From IMG/VR virus record IMGVR_UViG_3300030108_001051, positions 1-24,481 of that record: 24,481 nt of DNA, one strand, 5' to 3'. Source of the DNA: a virus. The position numbers and the translations under genes are program-made. This document shows, in pieces, positions 7,984 through 24,038 of the stretch. Positions within the stretch are counted from its first letter, which is position 1, and each line of letters opens with the position of its first letter. The notes under the pieces are model-generated. The model was not told where the DNA came from. It searched no databases and was given only the letters and a program-made list of their open reading frames with translations.

Positions 7984-10900
7984 ATGTCTATAACAGGTAG
8001 TGCTGCTGGTAGAGCATCCTTACAATATTTTAACGGTTCAAACTATGTAGAATTACAAACTCCAAGTGGTGCAAACGCACTTTTAGATTTAGTAATTACT
8101 GATACATTAAGTAATCCTGTTAATCTACAAGCCACGTTAATTAACAGACCTGCTGACCCACGCTCAGGAACTGCTTCATCAACTACAGGTAATTTAACAG
8201 GTATTCTTACAGAATTTATGAAGATACGATGTATTGATTCATATTCACAACAAGTTATTTTTTCAGGTTGGATTTATGATTTAGATGAAAATTATACTCT
8301 ACAAAGTGGAAGCACAATTAGTCTTGAAGCATATGATAACTTAGCAGAGTTGCGTGATTATAAAACTGATAACATGATTAAGATTGACACAAGTCAAAGT
8401 ACACATAACTCAAGAAGTGAAGTAATACAAGAACTTATTAAAAGGTCTAGTAAAGACAATATTGCTACATCAGATAGTAATCAATACGAAGCGTCTACTC
8501 AAAACTTTGCAACTAATATGTTAGGTGATTTAACACCAAAAGATGCAGGTAAGACTGTTTTAAATGCAATAAAACATCTAGCACAAACAGAACCAATAGA
8601 TGCATCAACTCAAAATCATAGTTTTGGAAACGATTTTTATTTAGCATCCCAGTTTACTTCTACAGCAACATCTGCAACACAAACACCTATGTTGAATTAT
8701 TTTAAACGTGGTTCAAGACCAATGACAAGTGGAAGTGACATGGATACCTTTGGTATGAAAATACAATTCCCACTTAGCAATAGTGATGTTGAAACAGGTC
8801 AAACGAGAAACATGTTACCTGATTATGATTTTAAAAGAGATAGAGCATCCGTTCATAGTGATGTTCACGTAAAATTTAGTGACAGGGGTGGAGCAGGTAA
8901 AGCATCAGGTTCAGATACACCTAGTGCAGGACAAACTAAAAAGATGAATCCACTTCAACTCACTAGATTAAACATGACTGCTATAAATGGACAGCTTAAT
9001 TATTTAGGCTCACCTATTGCTGGAGATTTAACAGTAAACGGACAATTTGTTTACTCTGATACAAAGGATGGATTCGTGCATGCATTTGCAGCATCTAAAG
9101 TACACACAAAAACAAATGAGTCATCTACACAAACTATAGTTTTAGATAAAGAACCATCTGCTGATTGGCTGGTGCGAATTGGAGCATCTGACCAACAAAT
9201 AGAAGCTGAAGCAAATACAACTTCAAATGAGAGTCATAAATTTGGATGGTTACGATTTAACAACGTGCCTGAAAATGATGATAGTAACAGTGTGCCTGGT
9301 GGTAAAATGCGAATCGCAGGTTTATCACTCAGTGGTCAAGAGTTAACAGTAACCACAGACACTAATCATTTTATGCAAGCTGGTGACAGAATTATGATGC
9401 AAGGTTTAAATCTAGGCACGGGTGGTGGAGCTATTAGAACAAATGCACAACTATACAAAAAAGGTGCAGGAGATAGAGTTATTAGTAGAGAAGGTCAATT
9501 AGGTGCTTTGTTCAATAAATTAAGAACTGGTGTATCTGATGATTTAGCAAACGGTGTTAGTGATGAATTAATGTACGTAGACAAAGAACACGGACTTACT
9601 ACATCAAACTATGGTTCTCACCTATTTTTAAAGAATGAATCAAATCAAGAGGAAACAGTAAAGATAAGAAAGATTTTTACTTCAATTCCAGATGATGGTG
9701 ACATGCCTGACAACTCTGCTCAATTAACTAACACAGCCACAAACATTCAAAACTTAGACCACTTCGACTTAGTTGAAATACAAAGAGCAATGCATTCAGG
9801 AACAGAGCGTGAACACAGCGTGAGTAATGGAGCTGGTCTTACAACTGCTGGTAGAGCGGCCCCAATTCCACTTTTTGCAGGCATTAGGACGGCAAATTTA
9901 TATGCACAAGAAGGTGGTGTTGGTGGTTTATTTAAAACAAACATATTTAGAATAGACAGAATTGTAACTGATACACAATTTGTAATTCGTGTAAATGCGG
10001 CTAATATTACATTTTCAGGTGGGCGATTAACTACAGGTTTTCTACATGCAGCTATTGATGACGCTGCTGATACAACTCAATTTAGTATTGCTGTAAACGA
10101 TGGTTCTAACGATAGATTAACAAAACCTCACCTTGCAGTAGGCATGATTATAAAAATAGATAGTGAAGAAATGTTGATTTCAGCCGTAGGTTCAGCAGGA
10201 AGTGGCACTGATTTTGCTACTCAAGTAACAGTAACTCGTGGGCATAATGGCACGACAAGAGCATCACATAGTGAAAATGCTGAAGTAACCACCATGGTTG
10301 CACATGTTATTCCAATCATTGGAAGAGTGCAACATCAAACAACTACAAGTTCAGTTACAAATGGGGAAGACTTTATTATTATATCTGACCAAGCTAAAAA
10401 TACACCGACTACAGGAAACTTTAGATTGTATGGTTTACAGTCAGGTAAATATGCAACGTTTAACTCAAGCACAACTGCCGTAAGTCATAGAGATAGTTTT
10501 GGATTAAATAAACCTATGTTTATGACAATTAATCAAATGAATAGACAACCTGACTCAATTAGAGGGGCATTTGCAGAAGCTTTGGGAGATGGGTCATTTG
10601 AAGAAACAAGAGCTGGAACAGTTCGTATAAATAACTTTGCGTATCAATTTATTGATGGACATGTTCATGGAGTGGCTAGTAGTGGAACGGTTGTTACAAC
10701 TAGAAATTTTGCAGATAACGCAACAATTAATCCTTTAAGTTATGGACTAAGAGTTGGTATGACTGTATGGAAATTGACAAGTGCAACTAATTTAACTAGA
10801 GCGGCATATGGATATGTATCTGCTGTAACAGCAACAACATTTACAGTTACTTTAAATAGTGGGACATTTGCAGAAGATGATAAATTTAGGATGTTTATAC

Positions 10901-12315
10901 CACTTAGACCAGGACATTTAGTTCAATTAAAAAACAAATTATTAAAAATAGATACAACAAGTGATAATACTTTTGGTGACAATCAAACAGACTATGTTGT
11001 TAATCAAGTTAAATATGTTGAACAACCAGGAACACAACAATCATCTATCTCTGTTGTAAAACAAGAAGGTGCTGTTGATTCACCAGGTAATGTTTACAAA
11101 AATATTCAAGGTGCAACAGATGATAATGCATTTAGTGCATTTGAAGATACACTTGTTAATCCATCTACAGCATCAACTGACATCACTATTGAAGCAGGCT
11201 CTCATGCGAGTGTGTCAGACGTAACTGCTGCAGCTAATGACGGAACAACACTTGAGGGTAAATTGTTTCACAAGGGACAAGCAATACATTGGACAAAGGG
11301 GACTCTAAGAGTTGATGGTGAAGAATATCAAATACCTGCTGGTAATAGCACAGATGGGGCTACTTTTGATGGTACAACATTATCTGCTGGAACTTTGATG
11401 TCAATTACAGATGCTAACGGAGCCACTAATTTAGAAACAGGGCCTGCTGACGCAACAGGAATACCTGATGAAAGATTTGTGTTATTTGCTGATTTAAAAC
11501 AATCAAAATTTATAGCTTGTTCAGTATCAAATTTTGAAGGCAATGTAACAGATAAAGGTAGTAAATTAATTGTTGGATATGCTAGAGCAGCTAGAGATGC
11601 AGGCGTAAGTAATGCAGGACACGAGGCGGCATTTGAATGGAAGATTAATAATGAAGTACACAATGAAATGAGTGTAAGAGGTGGTAAGTCATATGAGGGT
11701 CAAGGATTTGGACTAGGAAATGCTACTTTACCAATACTTGCTTTTGATGGGGATGAAACAACAGGTATTTTTTCTTCTGGGGATGGTCAAGTTAATGTTA
11801 CTTTAAACGGAGTTAACAGAATACAATTTGGTTCTTCCTCTGGAGGTAGTAAAGAAGAATTTGCGTTTGCACATCATTGGTTACCTTTTAGTGATGATTC
11901 ATTTGATTTAGGTTTTAGTACATCTGCGTTTAGATGGGATGAAATTTTTGCAACACACGGTTCTGTTCAATCATCTGATGAAAGAAATAAAGAAGAAATT
12001 GCTAATATTGATTTAGGTTTAGAATTTTTATTAGCTTTAACACCTAGAACATTTAAATGGAAAAGAAAAAATGTAACAAAGCATCATCCTGAGACAGGGG
12101 AAGCTTATACAAAGCCTGACGAAAAACATTATGGATTAATAGCACAAGAAGTAATTACTGTTTTAAATAGTATGGGCATATCTGATTTAGATGATTTTGG
12201 TGGAATTACAGGTAACTCAGATGAATATGGGGCAAGATATGTAGAATTTATAGCTATTCTAATTAAAGCTATACAAGAACTAACAGCAAGAGTAAAGGCG
12301 TTAGAAGATGGCTAA
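7984..12315 (+). CDS. Large tail hub/fibre protein with C-terminal Peptidase_S74 chaperone
   Basis: The start is ATG 7984 behind AGGAGG (7974-7979). This 1443-residue protein is the largest in the window. Residues 1-120 (LVITDTLSNPVNLQATLIN, FSGWIYDLDENYTLQSG) resemble the hub/tail-tip domain of tail-associated proteins. The middle contains beta modules, including one at about 700-775 with VGMIIKIDSEEMLISAVG and TVTRGHNGTTRASHSE. Residues about 1240-1300 (AFDGDETTGIFSSGDGQV) lead into a Peptidase_S74 domain with SDERNKEEI, where Ser1331 and Lys1336 match the Ser-x4-Lys dyad of self-cleaving trimerisation chaperones, and end in a helix (AIQELTARVKALE). The family folds trimeric fibres and then releases itself. 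Receptor binding or cell-surface degradation is inferred. The gene overlaps the next by 8 nt. Confidence 0.8.
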   Translation: MSITGSAAGRASLQYFNGSNYVELQTPSGANALLDLVITDTLSNPVNLQATLINRPADPRSGTASSTTGNLTGILTEFMKIRCIDSYSQQVIFSGWIYDLDENYTLQSGSTISLEAYDNLAELRDYKTDNMIKIDTSQSTHNSRSEVIQELIKRSSKDNIATSDSNQYEASTQNFATNMLGDLTPKDAGKTVLNAIKHLAQTEPIDASTQNHSFGNDFYLASQFTSTATSATQTPMLNYFKRGSRPMTSGSDMDTFGMKIQFPLSNSDVETGQTRNMLPDYDFKRDRASVHSDVHVKFSDRGGAGKASGSDTPSAGQTKKMNPLQLTRLNMTAINGQLNYLGSPIAGDLTVNGQFVYSDTKDGFVHAFAASKVHTKTNESSTQTIVLDKEPSADWLVRIGASDQQIEAEANTTSNESHKFGWLRFNNVPENDDSNSVPGGKMRIAGLSLSGQELTVTTDTNHFMQAGDRIMMQGLNLGTGGGAIRTNAQLYKKGAGDRVISREGQLGALFNKLRTGVSDDLANGVSDELMYVDKEHGLTTSNYGSHLFLKNESNQEETVKIRKIFTSIPDDGDMPDNSAQLTNTATNIQNLDHFDLVEIQRAMHSGTEREHSVSNGAGLTTAGRAAPIPLFAGIRTANLYAQEGGVGGLFKTNIFRIDRIVTDTQFVIRVNAANITFSGGRLTTGFLHAAIDDAADTTQFSIAVNDGSNDRLTKPHLAVGMIIKIDSEEMLISAVGSAGSGTDFATQVTVTRGHNGTTRASHSENAEVTTMVAHVIPIIGRVQHQTTTSSVTNGEDFIIISDQAKNTPTTGNFRLYGLQSGKYATFNSSTTAVSHRDSFGLNKPMFMTINQMNRQPDSIRGAFAEALGDGSFEETRAGTVRINNFAYQFIDGHVHGVASSGTVVTTRNFADNATINPLSYGLRVGMTVWKLTSATNLTRAAYGYVSAVTATTFTVTLNSGTFAEDDKFRMFIPLRPGHLVQLKNKLLKIDTTSDNTFGDNQTDYVVNQVKYVEQPGTQQSSISVVKQEGAVDSPGNVYKNIQGATDDNAFSAFEDTLVNPSTASTDITIEAGSHASVSDVTAAANDGTTLEGKLFHKGQAIHWTKGTLRVDGEEYQIPAGNSTDGATFDGTTLSAGTLMSITDANGATNLETGPADATGIPDERFVLFADLKQSKFIACSVSNFEGNVTDKGSKLIVGYARAARDAGVSNAGHEAAFEWKINNEVHNEMSVRGGKSYEGQGFGLGNATLPILAFDGDETTGIFSSGDGQVNVTLNGVNRIQFGSSSGGSKEEFAFAHHWLPFSDDSFDLGFSTSAFRWDEIFATHGSVQSSDERNKEEIANIDLGLEFLLALTPRTFKWKRKNVTKHHPETGEAYTKPDEKHYGLIAQEVITVLNSMGISDLDDFGGITGNSDEYGARYVEFIAILIKAIQELTARVKALEDG

Positions 12316-20005: not shown

Positions 20006-20213
20006 AATAGGTTTCACTTTTAGAATAGGAGCCTTAGACACAAACCAATATGGTCGAATGGATATGGAAGTACATGATATAGATACAGAACTTTCTATTG
20101 GAGACCAATTAGAAGAGGCTGGTGTTGCAATAGATAAAGTTTATAAAGCTTTACTTAATAAAGTAGACACTGAGATAGAAGGTATCATGAATGAATCGAG
20201 TGATACTAAATGA
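19986..20213 (+). CDS. Uncharacterised 75-residue protein (GTG start)
   Basis: The start is GTG 19986, seven bases after AAGGGG at 19973-19978, inside the 3' end of the zinc-ribbon gene. The product reads beta-rich at first (KIGVKIGFTFRIG and YGRMDMEVHDIDTELS), then helical (IGDQLEEAGVAIDKVYKALL). I do not recognise a named family, although similar small 'GFTxxxG' proteins occur in phage replication clusters. No cysteines, membrane segment or catalytic motif are present. It ends with an ATGA overlap to the MazG-like gene, so it is translated in the same run of coupled genes. Confidence 0.55.
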   Translation: MAKIGVKIGFTFRIGALDTNQYGRMDMEVHDIDTELSIGDQLEEAGVAIDKVYKALLNKVDTEIEGIMNESSDTK

Positions 20214-20500
20214 ATAATCCAGACGACCTAACAAAAAGTTTTTTATCTGAACTTAATAGAGCACAAGCTTTAGAAGATGTATTGTATGAAAGACTTAGAC
20301 AGGACGAATTATGGGGTGACCAATCAGGGCACGCTGATGAAAGATGGTTGGTTATATTAATAGAAGAAGTAGGTGAAGTTGCAAGAGCAATGTATGATGA
20401 AGATGAAGGACACGTTTACGAAGAAATAATACAATGTGCGGCTGTTTGCATGGCGTGGGCAGAAGCAATGCAGAGAAGGAGAACTATTGGAAAAGGATAG
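20210..20500 (+). CDS. MazG-like nucleotide pyrophosphohydrolase
   Basis: The ATG overlaps the previous TGA (ATGA). The 96-residue all-helical protein carries the MazG-type metal motif in LIEEVGEVARAMYD (E-E-x2-E), and a second helix VYEEIIQCAAVCMAWAEAM, where the usual EExxD is EEIIQ. It starts with a helix ending in LYERLRQDELWGDQSGH, as in phage MazG-like enzymes. The family cleaves nucleoside triphosphates to monophosphates and pyrophosphate and is thought to adjust nucleotide pools or alarmones. The Asp-to-Gln substitution occurs in related phage proteins as far as I recall, so activity is uncertain. Its 3' end contains the SD for the recombinase. Confidence 0.65.
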   Translation: MNNPDDLTKSFLSELNRAQALEDVLYERLRQDELWGDQSGHADERWLVILIEEVGEVARAMYDEDEGHVYEEIIQCAAVCMAWAEAMQRRRTIGKG

Positions 20501-21425
20501 AAAAAAATTAATTGACCAGTTATTAGGAAACAAGAAATTAAACATTGTAAAAGGTGATGATAAAGATTTTGAATATAATCGTATTGAATTTGGTATACCT
20601 AATTTAGATAAGCTGACAGGTGGGGGCATACCTAAAAAAAGAATGACTTTGATATATGGTCCTACCAACGTGGGTAAGTCTTATCTTGCATCACAGATAT
20701 GTGCCAATGTACAACGTGAAGGTGGTATAGCTGCTTGGATAGATACAGAACTATCTTGGGATGCTAATTGGATGAGTAAGTGTGGATTAGATACCAGTGA
20801 AATGTTATTGTCTCAACCTGAAAGTGGAGAACAAGCTTTTGAAACTATTGTAGAGATGATGAATGCAGGAGTTGATGTAATAGTATTAGACAGTATTGCA
20901 GGATTAGTGCCTGCTCAAAATCTTGATGAAGACTTTAGTTTTAATCCAATGGCGTGGCAAGCACGATTTGTAAACTCGGCATTACCTAAAGTGATGAACT
21001 CTTTAAGACAAGGAAGTGCATTTGTAGCAATCAACCAAGTAAGGTCTAGTATTGGTCCTGTTGCTTTAGCTAATATGCCTGGTGGTTTAGCCCAAGGTTT
21101 CTTTTCACACTTTCTACTGGAAGTAAAAAGAAGTGGGTGGCTAACAGATAAAGACCAAAAAGTTGGTTTTGATATGGAAGTGCGATTACGAAAAACTAAA
21201 GTAGGTGGTAGTAATTGGTCTTCTGCTATTGTGCCATTTAGAGTTGATGGTGGTATTGACGTGATTGAAAGTTACATGAGAGACGGTATCACACAAGGCA
21301 TAATTAAAAAAGCAGGGGCTTGGTATACCTTTGGTGAAGACAAAGCACAAGGCATGAATGGTTTGAAAGAACTTATAGTGTCTAAACCTGAACTATTAGA
21401 AATATTAAAGAATGACGTTACCTAG
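20487..21425 (+). CDS. RecA/UvsX-like DNA recombinase
   Basis: The frame is open from a GTG at 20436, but TTG 20487 is preferred: AAGGAG (20476-20481) lies 5 nt before it and the protein then begins at a charged helix. Length is then 312 residues. Key motifs are Walker A GPTNVGKS, the catalytic-Glu strand AAWIDTELSWD, Walker B VDVIVLDSIAGL, and FVAINQVRSSIG, whose Asn-Gln is at the usual sensor position. MAWQARFVNSALPKV and a glycine-rich loop (PGGLAQGFFSHF) resemble RecA/UvsX loops. This ATPase would form filaments on ssDNA and promote strand exchange for recombination-dependent replication. It overlaps the next gene by 14 nt. Confidence 0.8.
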   Translation: MEKDRKKLIDQLLGNKKLNIVKGDDKDFEYNRIEFGIPNLDKLTGGGIPKKRMTLIYGPTNVGKSYLASQICANVQREGGIAAWIDTELSWDANWMSKCGLDTSEMLLSQPESGEQAFETIVEMMNAGVDVIVLDSIAGLVPAQNLDEDFSFNPMAWQARFVNSALPKVMNSLRQGSAFVAINQVRSSIGPVALANMPGGLAQGFFSHFLLEVKRSGWLTDKDQKVGFDMEVRLRKTKVGGSNWSSAIVPFRVDGGIDVIESYMRDGITQGIIKKAGAWYTFGEDKAQGMNGLKELIVSKPELLEILKNDVT

Positions 21426-21729
21426 AGATTATACCCAGCAAGAAAAATTAGTTGAGCAATGTTTACAAGTAACAGGTCTTAGATATGATAATCAAGTAGA
21501 ATTTGGTAAATATACTGTAGATTTTTATATAGATGAAATAAAAACAGTTGTTGAAGCTGATGGAATCTATGGACATTTAAGAAAACGTGACCGTAAAAGA
21601 GACGATGAATTATATGAGTTGGGTGTGGAACATATAATACACATTAAAGAAAAAACACATCAACGAATATGTGAGGAACTATGGCAGGCATTAGACAAAT
21701 TGGAGCCGTTGGAAAACGAAAAAAAGTAA
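21412..21729 (+). CDS. Vsr/DUF559-like endonuclease
   Basis: The ATG at 21412 overlaps the recombinase stop by 14 nt. The 105-residue protein has the DUF559/very-short-patch-repair-like core: Asp37 in TVDFYI, then VVEADGIYGH with Glu48 and Asp50, then RKRDDELYELGVEHIIHI. These fit the PD-(D/E)XK variant of the family (D...E-x-D...H). Vsr-type nucleases nick or cleave DNA. In phages such small enzymes may process recombination intermediates or act as homing-like nucleases. The specific substrate is unknown. It overlaps the Cas4-like gene by 49 nt, an unusually long overlap here. Confidence 0.65.
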   Translation: MTLPRDYTQQEKLVEQCLQVTGLRYDNQVEFGKYTVDFYIDEIKTVVEADGIYGHLRKRDRKRDDELYELGVEHIIHIKEKTHQRICEELWQALDKLEPLENEKK

Positions 21730-22361
21730 AAAAACAACGACAAGATAAATGGCTAATTAATAAATTAGACGATATGCTCGCATCTAAAAAACGTAATGGT
21801 ATGAAGGGTAAGTTCCATGCTTCAGTAATAGGAAATCCTTGTGATAGATATTTATACTTAGCTTATAACGGTTTACTTCCAGATGTGCCTTTAAGTGCAC
21901 GAGTTCAAAGAATCTTTGATAATGGTAGTTATCTAGAGTATAGAATGAAAAAATATTTTGAACGAATGAATATTTTAATTAAACAAGAAGTCCCTTGTAA
22001 ATTTGACAATCCTATAATATCAGGACGTATAGATTTTATCTTAAGACATCCAAAATTAAACACGGTTTTATTAGAACTTAAATCTATAAAGGGTTCATTA
22101 TTTGATGAATTAGATGGCCCTCAAGAAACGCATGGTATTCAAGCACAAGTATATCTACATCTTAATAAGTTAGGTATTAACACAGGTTATGTATTATATG
22201 AAAACAAAGATAATCAAGAACTTAAATGTTTCAGAGTAGAAAAAGACGATGATGCATTCGCAAAAATTTTAGATAGATGTTATACTATTATGTCATTAAG
22301 AGCTGCTCCGACAGAATGTAGTGGCGAATTTTATTGCGATTGTAGAAAGGTGAAATTATGA
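21681..22361 (+). CDS. Cas4/RecB-like PD-(D/E)XK exonuclease with possible Fe-S cluster
   Basis: ATG 21681 has GAGGA five bases upstream. The 226-residue protein has a basic N-terminus and a PD-(D/E)XK core: SGRIDFIL with Asp118, LLELKSIKG with Glu132 and Lys134, and the QAQVYLHL helix (Gln154, Gln156, Tyr158) of Cas4/RecB-type nucleases. Four cysteines bracket the fold: Cys54 in GNPCDRYLYLAY, and Cys213, Cys219 and Cys221 near the C-terminus. One plus three is the pattern of Fe-S cluster nucleases such as Cas4 and AddB, though the C-terminal spacing here (C-x5-C-x-C) differs. It probably resects DNA ends for the RecA-like recombinase. No Cas1 or Cas2 or repeats occur in the window, so a CRISPR role is not suggested. 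Confidence 0.7.
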   Translation: MAGIRQIGAVGKRKKVKKQRQDKWLINKLDDMLASKKRNGMKGKFHASVIGNPCDRYLYLAYNGLLPDVPLSARVQRIFDNGSYLEYRMKKYFERMNILIKQEVPCKFDNPIISGRIDFILRHPKLNTVLLELKSIKGSLFDELDGPQETHGIQAQVYLHLNKLGINTGYVLYENKDNQELKCFRVEKDDDAFAKILDRCYTIMSLRAAPTECSGEFYCDCRKVKL

Positions 22362-23092
22362 AACTAGAACGTATGACAGTAACAGGTGCCGATGACATGA
22401 CTAATGTTAGGGGCATGATTGAATTATCAAAAGAATATCGATTTTTAGAATGGGGTATATTATTTCCATTATCAGGTGGGTCAAGATTTCCTACCTCAGA
22501 ATGGTTGGCTCATCTATTAGAAGAAAAAGGAAAAACTCCTATGAATTTATCTGCACATTTATGTGGGGGTGATTTAGATGATGCCTTAGAAAATAAGTCT
22601 AAAATAAATTTAGATGAATTTAAAAGAATACAATTAAACTTTCATGGTCTAAATTATTATCAGCTTGTTATGAAAAGTGTAACTGATACAGAAATGACAT
22701 TATTTACACTAGAACAGTTTTTAGAATCTGTATCAAATAAAAAAGTTATATTTCAATTTGATGGGGTGAATGATGGATGGATTTACAATTACTTAGATAA
22801 TGGTAATTTTTCCAATATCCAATATCTATTTGACACCTCATCAGGTGCAGGCATTCTACCTAATACTTTTCCAATGCCTTACAAAGGCATTACTTGTGGA
22901 TTTGCAGGTGGTATAGGTCCTGATAATATTCAAGAGGTGGTGGATACACTAAAAGAAAATCTATCCCCTACAAAACCTTTTTGGATTGATATGGAGACAA
23001 GGGTCAGAACAGATGGTGATTTAGATTTAAACAAAGTAGCACAATGTGCAGATGTGGTTGCACGTGAAGTATTTGGGAGACATTCAATATGA
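22358..23092 (+). CDS. TrpF-like TIM-barrel protein of unknown activity
   Basis: The ATG overlaps the preceding TGA by 4 nt (ATGA). The 244-residue protein can be laid strand by strand on phosphoribosylanthranilate isomerase (TrpF). MTVTGADD sits at TrpF strand 1, and GILFPLSGGSRFP at its FIFxxxSxRxV strand 2. IQLNFHG sits at strand 4, LFDTSSGAGI at the FDxxxGGTG strand 6 (Asp159), and GFAGGIGPDN at the phosphate-binding GGLxPxN loop. FWIDMETRVRTDG lies at strand 8. The TrpF general-base cysteine (KICG) appears as Thr9 (TVTG), while the general-acid Asp is kept. Tryptophan biosynthesis is unlikely, since no other trp gene is near. It lies between a Cas4-like and a possible UvsY-like gene. Function unknown. 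Confidence 0.6.
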   Translation: MKLERMTVTGADDMTNVRGMIELSKEYRFLEWGILFPLSGGSRFPTSEWLAHLLEEKGKTPMNLSAHLCGGDLDDALENKSKINLDEFKRIQLNFHGLNYYQLVMKSVTDTEMTLFTLEQFLESVSNKKVIFQFDGVNDGWIYNYLDNGNFSNIQYLFDTSSGAGILPNTFPMPYKGITCGFAGGIGPDNIQEVVDTLKENLSPTKPFWIDMETRVRTDGDLDLNKVAQCADVVAREVFGRHSI

Positions 23093-23565
23093 CACAACAA
23101 AGTTGGTTAGATGAAGAACCTAAAAATCCAAAGATAGAAAAGAAAATGAATGTTCCATCATTAAAATGGGATTTAGAAGAAAAACCACATTTAGAATTTG
23201 CCGAAGCTTGGCGACAGACTAATGAAGGATTACAAGAATATTTAACTATGTATGGTAACTATAAGTCATATTTAGAGTATGCCTTGTCAGACGTACAAGC
23301 TCAAGCAAAACTATTAGCAGACCAATTTGATGAAGCCATGTCAGTCACTATGTATAAATTTGTAAAACAAAATACTGATGCAAAACGAATGGTAAAAGAA
23401 CAAGTTAAGGGTGCAGTTATAGATGCCAATCCTAATCTTAAAGACCACGCACATCAACTAAGGGAAGCTCAAGCAGAAGTTTTAAGACTGGAAGGTTTGC
23501 TAGCTTCATATACAACAGCGTTTAATACGATTAGCAGAATCATATCTTTAAGGATTACGAAATAA
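23089..23565 (+). CDS. Helical protein, possible UvsY-like recombination mediator
   Basis: The ATG overlaps the previous TGA. The 158-residue protein is nearly all helical after a disordered, charged N-terminus. Residues 35-95 form two helices (YLTMYGNYKSYLEYALSD and onwards). A basic hinge (KQNTDAKRMVKEQVKG) then leads to a final coiled helix (HQLREAQAEVLRLEGLLASY and FNTISRIISLRI). The layout and the 'ANPNLK' turn before a long C-terminal helix resemble T4 UvsY, which loads UvsX on gp32-coated ssDNA; recombinase and gp32-like genes are present in this window. Similarity is in layout rather than identical residues, so the assignment is tentative. It could be another coiled-coil replication accessory. 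Confidence 0.4.
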   Translation: MTQQSWLDEEPKNPKIEKKMNVPSLKWDLEEKPHLEFAEAWRQTNEGLQEYLTMYGNYKSYLEYALSDVQAQAKLLADQFDEAMSVTMYKFVKQNTDAKRMVKEQVKGAVIDANPNLKDHAHQLREAQAEVLRLEGLLASYTTAFNTISRIISLRITK

Positions 23566-24038
23566 TGTACATGGGAGTTGATTGTTCATCAAAAGGGGTG
23601 CATGCTGTATTAATTGATGACGGTTGTAGACTCGTTAGTACATTTAAAATTAATGTAAAAAAAGCAGATTTTAGTGAAAGAATTACTGAAATCTTTGATA
23701 AATTTCAAAGTGAAATAAGTAAAATAAAGATAAGGAAATCTGCTATAGAAAAGGCAATTTATATTCAAAATGCGAAAGCAACTATCCAGATTGCTTCGGT
23801 TGTCACTGCGATACAGTTAGCTTGCCATAAGCAGAGTGTCCCTTGTTATTTAGTAGATAACAAGACTTGGAAGAAAGATATAATAGGTAAAGGGAACTCC
23901 TCTAAACAAGACATCATGGAATATGCTGTTGATAAATGGGGGGATGTTTTTACTGAACAAGATTATGCTGATGCGGCTTGTATCGCATTACATGCACAAA
24001 AGGAGAGTATAGAAAATGGGAGTGCCAAGGGGATATAA
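23565..24038 (+). CDS. RuvC-like Holliday junction resolvase
   Basis: The ATG overlaps the preceding TAA by 1 nt. The 157-residue protein has the RNase H-like fold signature: strand 1 MYMGVDCSSKGVHAVLID with Asp6, a second acidic strand SAIEKAIYI with Glu62, and C-terminal EQDYADAACIALHA with Asp133 and Asp136. The four acidic residues match the RuvC catalytic tetrad, and KTWKKDIIGKGNSSKQDI supplies the basic pre-catalytic helix region. It would cut four-way junctions left by recombination-driven replication, before packaging. It is shorter than cellular RuvC, as phage versions often are. The next gene starts within its last 23 nt. Confidence 0.75.
   Translation: MYMGVDCSSKGVHAVLIDDGCRLVSTFKINVKKADFSERITEIFDKFQSEISKIKIRKSAIEKAIYIQNAKATIQIASVVTAIQLACHKQSVPCYLVDNKTWKKDIIGKGNSSKQDIMEYAVDKWGDVFTEQDYADAACIALHAQKESIENGSAKGI

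Follow-up and report, generated by a model that had tools for sequence, protein, structure and literature searches.

A TrpF-fold protein family of phages, plasmids and bacteria with threonine at the catalytic cysteine position, and its possible action on ureide-type phosphoribosyl compounds

In phosphoribosylanthranilate isomerase (TrpF), an Asp residue opens the ribose ring and a Cys residue then takes the C2′ proton. We take the catalytic base to be Cys7 in the T. maritima enzyme and Cys260 in the E. coli enzyme, and the general acid to be Asp126 in T. maritima, with Asp159 as its counterpart in the protein described here. The catalytic face of a TIM barrel is formed by the C-terminal ends of its strands. 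HisA is, like TrpF, a TIM-barrel Amadori isomerase acting on 5′-phosphoribosyl amines (PMC7591586). Another described system is the URC pathway. In it, URC1 and URC6 are reported to yield ribosylurea and 3-hydroxypropionate from uracil, and the degradation of ribosylurea, with urea as the product, is attributed to URC4 (PMC7530994, a secondary source for the URC4 step). Urea is also released from an N-deoxyribosylurea lesion in DNA by hNEIL1; this excision was proposed to proceed via O4′ protonation and ring opening, and a trapped complex supports that both precede urea release (PMC10164570).

The window, that is, the whole stretch of DNA analyzed here, is a 24.5-kb virus record, and the gene under study is a complete ORF of 244 codons that overlaps both neighboring genes by 4 bases (Table 1). 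The first-pass annotation of this DNA had described the gene as coupled to a Cas4-like nuclease and a possible UvsY-like gene. The Cas4-like nuclease proved real, as did a RecA/UvsX gene, located two genes further upstream beyond the Cas4-like gene, and a RuvC gene, whereas the downstream product gave no confident match in profile searches of Pfam, PHROGs and NCBIfam, and the UvsY-like assignment was not confirmed. As also stated at first pass, no other trp gene was recognized among the proteins scanned in the window. Elsewhere in the window, a 105-aa DUF559/Vsr-like endonuclease (21412–21729) overlaps both the RecA-like and the Cas4-like genes that flank it, and a 1443-aa protein (7984–12315) matches a tail-spike family (PHROG 4636) in its last approximately 120 residues.

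Table 1. Features of the window at and around the TrpF-fold gene
Feature	Position	Strand	Evidence
TrpF-fold family protein, 244 aa	22358..23092	+	Translation, model pLDDT 90.9, PDB matches, family alignments
Thr9 codon (TrpF catalytic Cys position)	22382..22384	+	Translation, structural and sequence alignment
Asp159 codon (TrpF catalytic Asp position), 100% conserved	22832..22834	+	Translation, family alignment, HMM comparison
Cas4-like exonuclease, directly upstream, 4-base overlap	21681..22361	+	PHROGs 1706/1990, E 1e-21
158-aa protein, directly downstream, 4-base overlap	23089..23565	+	Conserved only in the window's phage lineage
RuvC-like Holliday junction resolvase	23565..24038	+	Pfam RuvC E 1e-10, PHROG 159 E 1.6e-15
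RecA/UvsX-like recombinase	20436..21425	+	Pfam RecA E 1.1e-45, PHROG 97 E 2e-54
Small MazG-like protein	20210..20500	+	Pfam MazG 19.8 bits, below cut-off 22

By sequence alone, the window protein is a borderline TrpF. Pfam PRAI (TrpF) matches only residues 155–230, with 23.0 bits against a cut-off of 22.7, and the score for the NCBIfam TrpF equivalog, 12.6 bits, lies below its cut-off of 232. The marginal PRAI score is not a chance result, since a weak PRAI match was obtained for 73 of 98 relatives. A search of PDB sequences with the family returned only weak TrpF matches (best E 0.0036). When the family was compared, profile to profile, with the TrpF proteins of genomes that carry it, the whole length aligned over 198 columns with a probability of 96.8%. 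The AlphaFold2 model, built with an alignment of 97 relatives, had a pLDDT of 90.9 and a pTM of 0.90, and it was compared by VIA-align with Foldseek's top 1000 PDB chains. The best match was TrpF 1nsj (Z 16.4, rmsd 3.0 Å, 191 residues), the first eight ranks were all TrpF (Z 16.4 to 14.8), ahead of the first triosephosphate isomerase at Z 14.2; in the plain Foldseek ranking, several TIM barrels come out together. The ProFAR isomerases HisA and PriA were not among the fold matches listed and are compared here from general knowledge, and a viral structure library gave no informative match to the model. The predicted structure confirms a TrpF-type (β/α)8 barrel, as the first-pass annotation had proposed.

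Active-site geometry was read from alignments and the secondary structure of the model only. Residue 1 of 1nsj aligned to model residue 3, and residue 252 of E. coli 1pii to model residue 1; with these starts, and provided that there is no gap in the first strand, Thr9 is paired with TrpF Cys7/Cys260. The same pairing is seen in the sequence alignment, where VTG lies over KICG of TrpF, in line with the earlier reading of Thr at the Cys position. Asp159 aligned to LFDT at the end of TrpF strand 6, and the motifs SRFP, FDTSSGAG, GGIGPDN and ID-ETRV were found at the positions originally assigned to them.

Conservation was measured over 108 members at under 80% identity. The expectation that homologs carry Thr at position 9 held for 98% of them, and Ser was found in one divergent chromosomal clade. 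Gly10, Glu31, Leu35, His67, Gln92, Asn94, Asp159, Gly165, Gly181, Gly184, Gly185, Trp209 and Asp211 were invariant, and Arg43, Cys69, Arg90, Gln133, Ser161, Glu213 and Arg217 were conserved in 96–99%. A near-invariant active-site set without TrpF counterpart (Glu31, His67, Cys69, Arg90, Gln92, Asn94, Gln133, Ser161, Asp211, Glu213 and Arg217) is common to phage and chromosomal members, and the acid Asp159, Arg43 and the GGxGPxN phosphate-loop motif are kept as in TrpF. According to the model secondary structure, Thr9, His67, Cys69, Gln92, Asn94, Gln133, Asp159, Ser161, Asp211 and Glu213 lie at C-terminal strand ends. Since conserved residues occupy these positions in the model, the family is not a TrpF in decay but a putative enzyme that carries a signature of its own. 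In comparison with TrpF (PF00697), the fold (Z 16.4), the phosphate-loop motif GGxxPxN, the Asp at the acid position and the Arg after strand 2 are shared, but the catalytic Cys is Thr in the family, the strand-4 QLHG of TrpF is Q-x-N, strand 3 has HxC, and strand 8 reads W-I-D-x-E-x-x-x-R against DVSSGVE. In addition, unlike TrpF genes, the family genes are not in trp operons.

Close relatives of the window protein were found at 11 viral loci, and the wider search gave 99 viral stretches, 48 bacterial genome loci and 16 plasmid records; two distinct huge-phage genomes and a Microcystis phage also carry the family. Nearly all plasmid copies are named 'hypothetical protein', none of 98 members matched PHROGs, and our literature search found no paper describing the family. 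The TrpF-fold family with Thr9 is thus large and undescribed. A match in Pectobacterium phage PPWS2 (E 5e-3) was a short HAD/polynucleotide-kinase-like gene and was judged to be due to chance.

Some members occur in particular arrangements. Three copies are present at L239 7598–10681 (G379:C1:43597–46644), two of them adjacent and the third past one opposite-strand gene; they lie beside RlmN in an alphaproteobacterial genome of 0.9 Mb. Their clade is the divergent chromosomal one, in which positions 9, 69 and 217 hold Ser, Asn and Lys, respectively. On an Azonexus hydrophilus plasmid (L142 8001–9314), a member is fused to a C-terminal domain of approximately 200 aa, whose best Pfam match, PRA-PH (phosphoribosyl-ATP pyrophosphohydrolase), scored 17.2 bits, below the cut-off of 21.3, and the following gene is DUF5131. 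On a Variovorax plasmid (L143 6961–8699), the gene directly upstream of a member matches BtpA (TIM-barrel) weakly, with a score well below the Pfam cut-off.

Gene neighborhoods were examined by Pfam tallies, and notable contexts were then read gene by gene. In Alphaproteobacteria, the neighbors were GTP_CH_N/GTP cyclohydrolase II proteins (URC1) and uracil phosphoribosyltransferase (UPRT). In Gammaproteobacteria and relatives, they were nucleoside hydrolase, nucleoside transporter, adenosine deaminase and 5-hydroxyisourate hydrolase, together with a phosphorylase, a PfkB kinase and a purine permease. Uracil and nucleoside catabolism in bacterial chromosomes is the strongest genomic context of the family. 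Of the chemistries for which the protein had been suggested to be recruited, nucleotide or sugar-phosphate chemistry is made probable by these contexts, whereas nothing specific to DNA base modification was found. No GTP-cyclohydrolase-II-domain gene was found beside the phage copies within the stretches examined. Several phage members (L013, L014 and the window lineage) have MazG-like genes close by, and a motif count gave no enrichment, the motif being too strict to be informative. In one genome (G577, L242 2648–5395), a member is tightly flanked by a MutY-type gene on one side and the gene of a PfkB sugar/nucleoside kinase on the other, which hints at damaged-nucleoside metabolism. In two genomes (G260 and G261), the Cys position of a diverged TrpF-like gene reads Ala, and this gene overlaps a GTP-cyclohydrolase-II-domain gene by 4 bases (L246 6959–8679 and L247 6631–8339). 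This pair is possibly a bridge between TrpF and the family, and it may be a second case in which a TrpF-like protein is linked to a ring-opening enzyme.

The relation of the family to the URC genes was surveyed using GTP_CH_N as the marker of URC1 and DUF1688 (PF07958) as that of URC4. Among 142 genomes of the order that includes G001, the family was present in 18 clear carriers and URC1 in 17, with an overlap of 15; two further weak family matches were the divergent G260/G261 pair. URC4 was found only in G277 and G280, which are the two URC1 genomes of the order without the family. Three genomes (G204, G279 and G282) had the family without URC1, possibly due to MAG incompleteness. In an even class-wide sample of 289 genomes, URC1 was present in 24 and URC4 in 23 of these 24, and the exception, G001, carries the family. 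When the URC1-bearing alphaproteobacterial genomes were pooled (n = 40), 25 had URC4, 15 had the family, and none had both or neither, in counts that are not phylogenetically independent and come probably mostly from MAGs. A naive Fisher test within the order gave p = 1.6e-15 for the family with URC1 and p = 0.007 for the family against URC4, the genomes being related. In a proteobacterium of another lineage (G010), URC1 adjoins the family gene and URC4 is absent.

The operon slot agrees with this pattern. Comparison of loci L204/L205 versus L214/L215, with Pfam identities checked, showed that the genes run URC1-URC4-UPRT in G277/G280 and URC1-family-UPRT in G009/G181. The URC4 slot of the URC1-x-UPRT operon is occupied by family members of one alphaproteobacterial clade. 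As the URC-linked copies form one clade (97% SH-aLRT), the replacement may have been a single event. This clade is nested among phage and plasmid copies on the sequence tree, which suggests that bacteria took the gene from mobile elements. The family and URC4 share the slot and are mutually exclusive in occurrence, but there is no sequence match between them: URC4 matches DUF1688 only and the family matches PRAI, and the family is at most a functional analogue, not a homologue, of URC4. A search with URC4 against PDB sequences found nothing.

From these results, we favor with moderate confidence the reading that the window protein belongs to an undescribed TrpF-fold family acting on ureide-type N-(5-phosphoribosyl) compounds, and not on phosphoribosylanthranilate. 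For the URC clade, hydrolysis of N-(5-phosphoribosyl)urea-type compounds by a TrpF scaffold without the Amadori base is well supported by genomics, and the family would do the job reported for URC4, the release of urea from (5-phospho)ribosylurea. Phosphoribosylurea resembles the N-phosphoribosyl substrate of TrpF itself. As in TrpF, the conserved Asp would protonate the ribose ring oxygen, and the opened ring would form a Schiff-base-like intermediate. With no Cys to act as the base at C2′, no Amadori shift would follow, and retention of the Asp with loss of the Cys would leave the open-chain intermediate open to hydrolysis. Water activated by His67/Glu213 would then hydrolyze it to ribose-5-phosphate and urea. 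NEIL1-type glycosylases likewise excise urea from N-deoxyribosylurea via O4′ protonation and ring opening (PMC10164570), but their fold is unrelated and their substrate is DNA, so that the parallel is mechanistic only.

In phages, the same chemistry may clear ring-opened or oxidized pyrimidine nucleotides, or salvage their ribose phosphate, during infection. The shared active-site residues of the phage and URC groups and the nested tree favor the same bond chemistry in phages, and our confidence in ureide chemistry is clearly lower for phages than for the URC clade. Among the family-bearing records searched, those of phages, plasmids, Gammaproteobacteria and Bacteroidales had no URC1; therefore, ribosylurea is only a conjectural substrate in these groups. 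This includes ten viral and two huge-phage records, which are possibly fragments. URC4 was likewise absent from the phage, plasmid and gammaproteobacterial carriers in the records searched. The absence of URC1 and URC4 from phage and plasmid records would also be expected if the phage branch had diverged toward another N-glycoside or sugar-phosphate substrate, for example in nucleotide modification or anti-defence, and the URC role belonged to the chromosomal clade only. The window and URC-linked members are indeed only approximately 30–40% identical and far apart on the tree, and DNA methylases, replication genes, DUF5131 and DUF1643 predominate among the neighbors on mobile elements. However, all catalytic-type residues are identical in the viral and URC-linked members and the URC clade is nested within the mobile-element copies, and we regard such a divergence as possible but rather unlikely.

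Less probable still, and in our judgment doubtful, is that the family is an isomerase after all. In this reading, N-(5-phosphoribosyl)urea or some other phosphoribosylamine would undergo an Amadori-type rearrangement, and Cys69/His67 of strand 3 would act as the base in place of Cys7 of strand 1. The TrpF fold, the conserved Asp159, the phosphate-loop motif, and the near-invariant Cys and invariant His at the end of strand 3 are all compatible with this mechanism. Nevertheless, Asn replaces Cys69 in the divergent chromosomal clade, and the Amadori product of ribosylurea would not itself free urea, the step reported for URC4 (PMC7530994).

The gene order UvsX, Cas4-like, family, RuvC was found in 8 of 109 non-redundant loci, all of the window's phage lineage, and one more member, in a Microcystis phage, lies near RecT/YqaJ. 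The idea that homologs always sit beside recombination genes was not borne out, and adjoining recombination genes mostly characterize the window's lineage and not the family as a whole. A recombination-linked function was rejected, because the neighbors were not conserved outside this lineage among the 109 loci. In eight related phages, the gene is coupled to RuvC and Cas4-like genes, which could point to a TrpF relative that has lost catalysis and serves a phage recombination complex through binding or as a scaffold, but with more than 12 near-invariant polar residues, most of them at C-terminal strand ends, and most members without recombination genes nearby, we consider this highly improbable. 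Despite its homology to TrpF, the protein can hardly be a working phosphoribosylanthranilate isomerase supplying tryptophan in infection, as the catalytic Cys is gone (Thr in approximately 98% of members), 9 of 10 carrier genomes own a TrpF with a far stronger PRAI match than the family member, and no other trp gene was recognized nearby.

Returning to the ureide-acting family, we tentatively propose for it a fuller history, in which a phage-borne N-(5-phosphoribosyl)urea (ureide) hydrolase arose from TrpF by loss of the base, one mobile copy replaced bacterial URC4, and phages use the enzyme to clear ring-opened or oxidized nucleotides. The analysis provides a testable function for a protein family that is widespread in phages, plasmids and bacteria and has been left unannotated. 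If the proposal is true, the loss of one catalytic residue would have turned a textbook isomerase into a hydrolase, and the finding would be relevant to the last step of the URC pathway of uracil, the one that handles ribosylurea; the bacterial enzymes of this pathway have received little study. It would also exemplify how an enzyme from mobile elements is domesticated into core catabolism.
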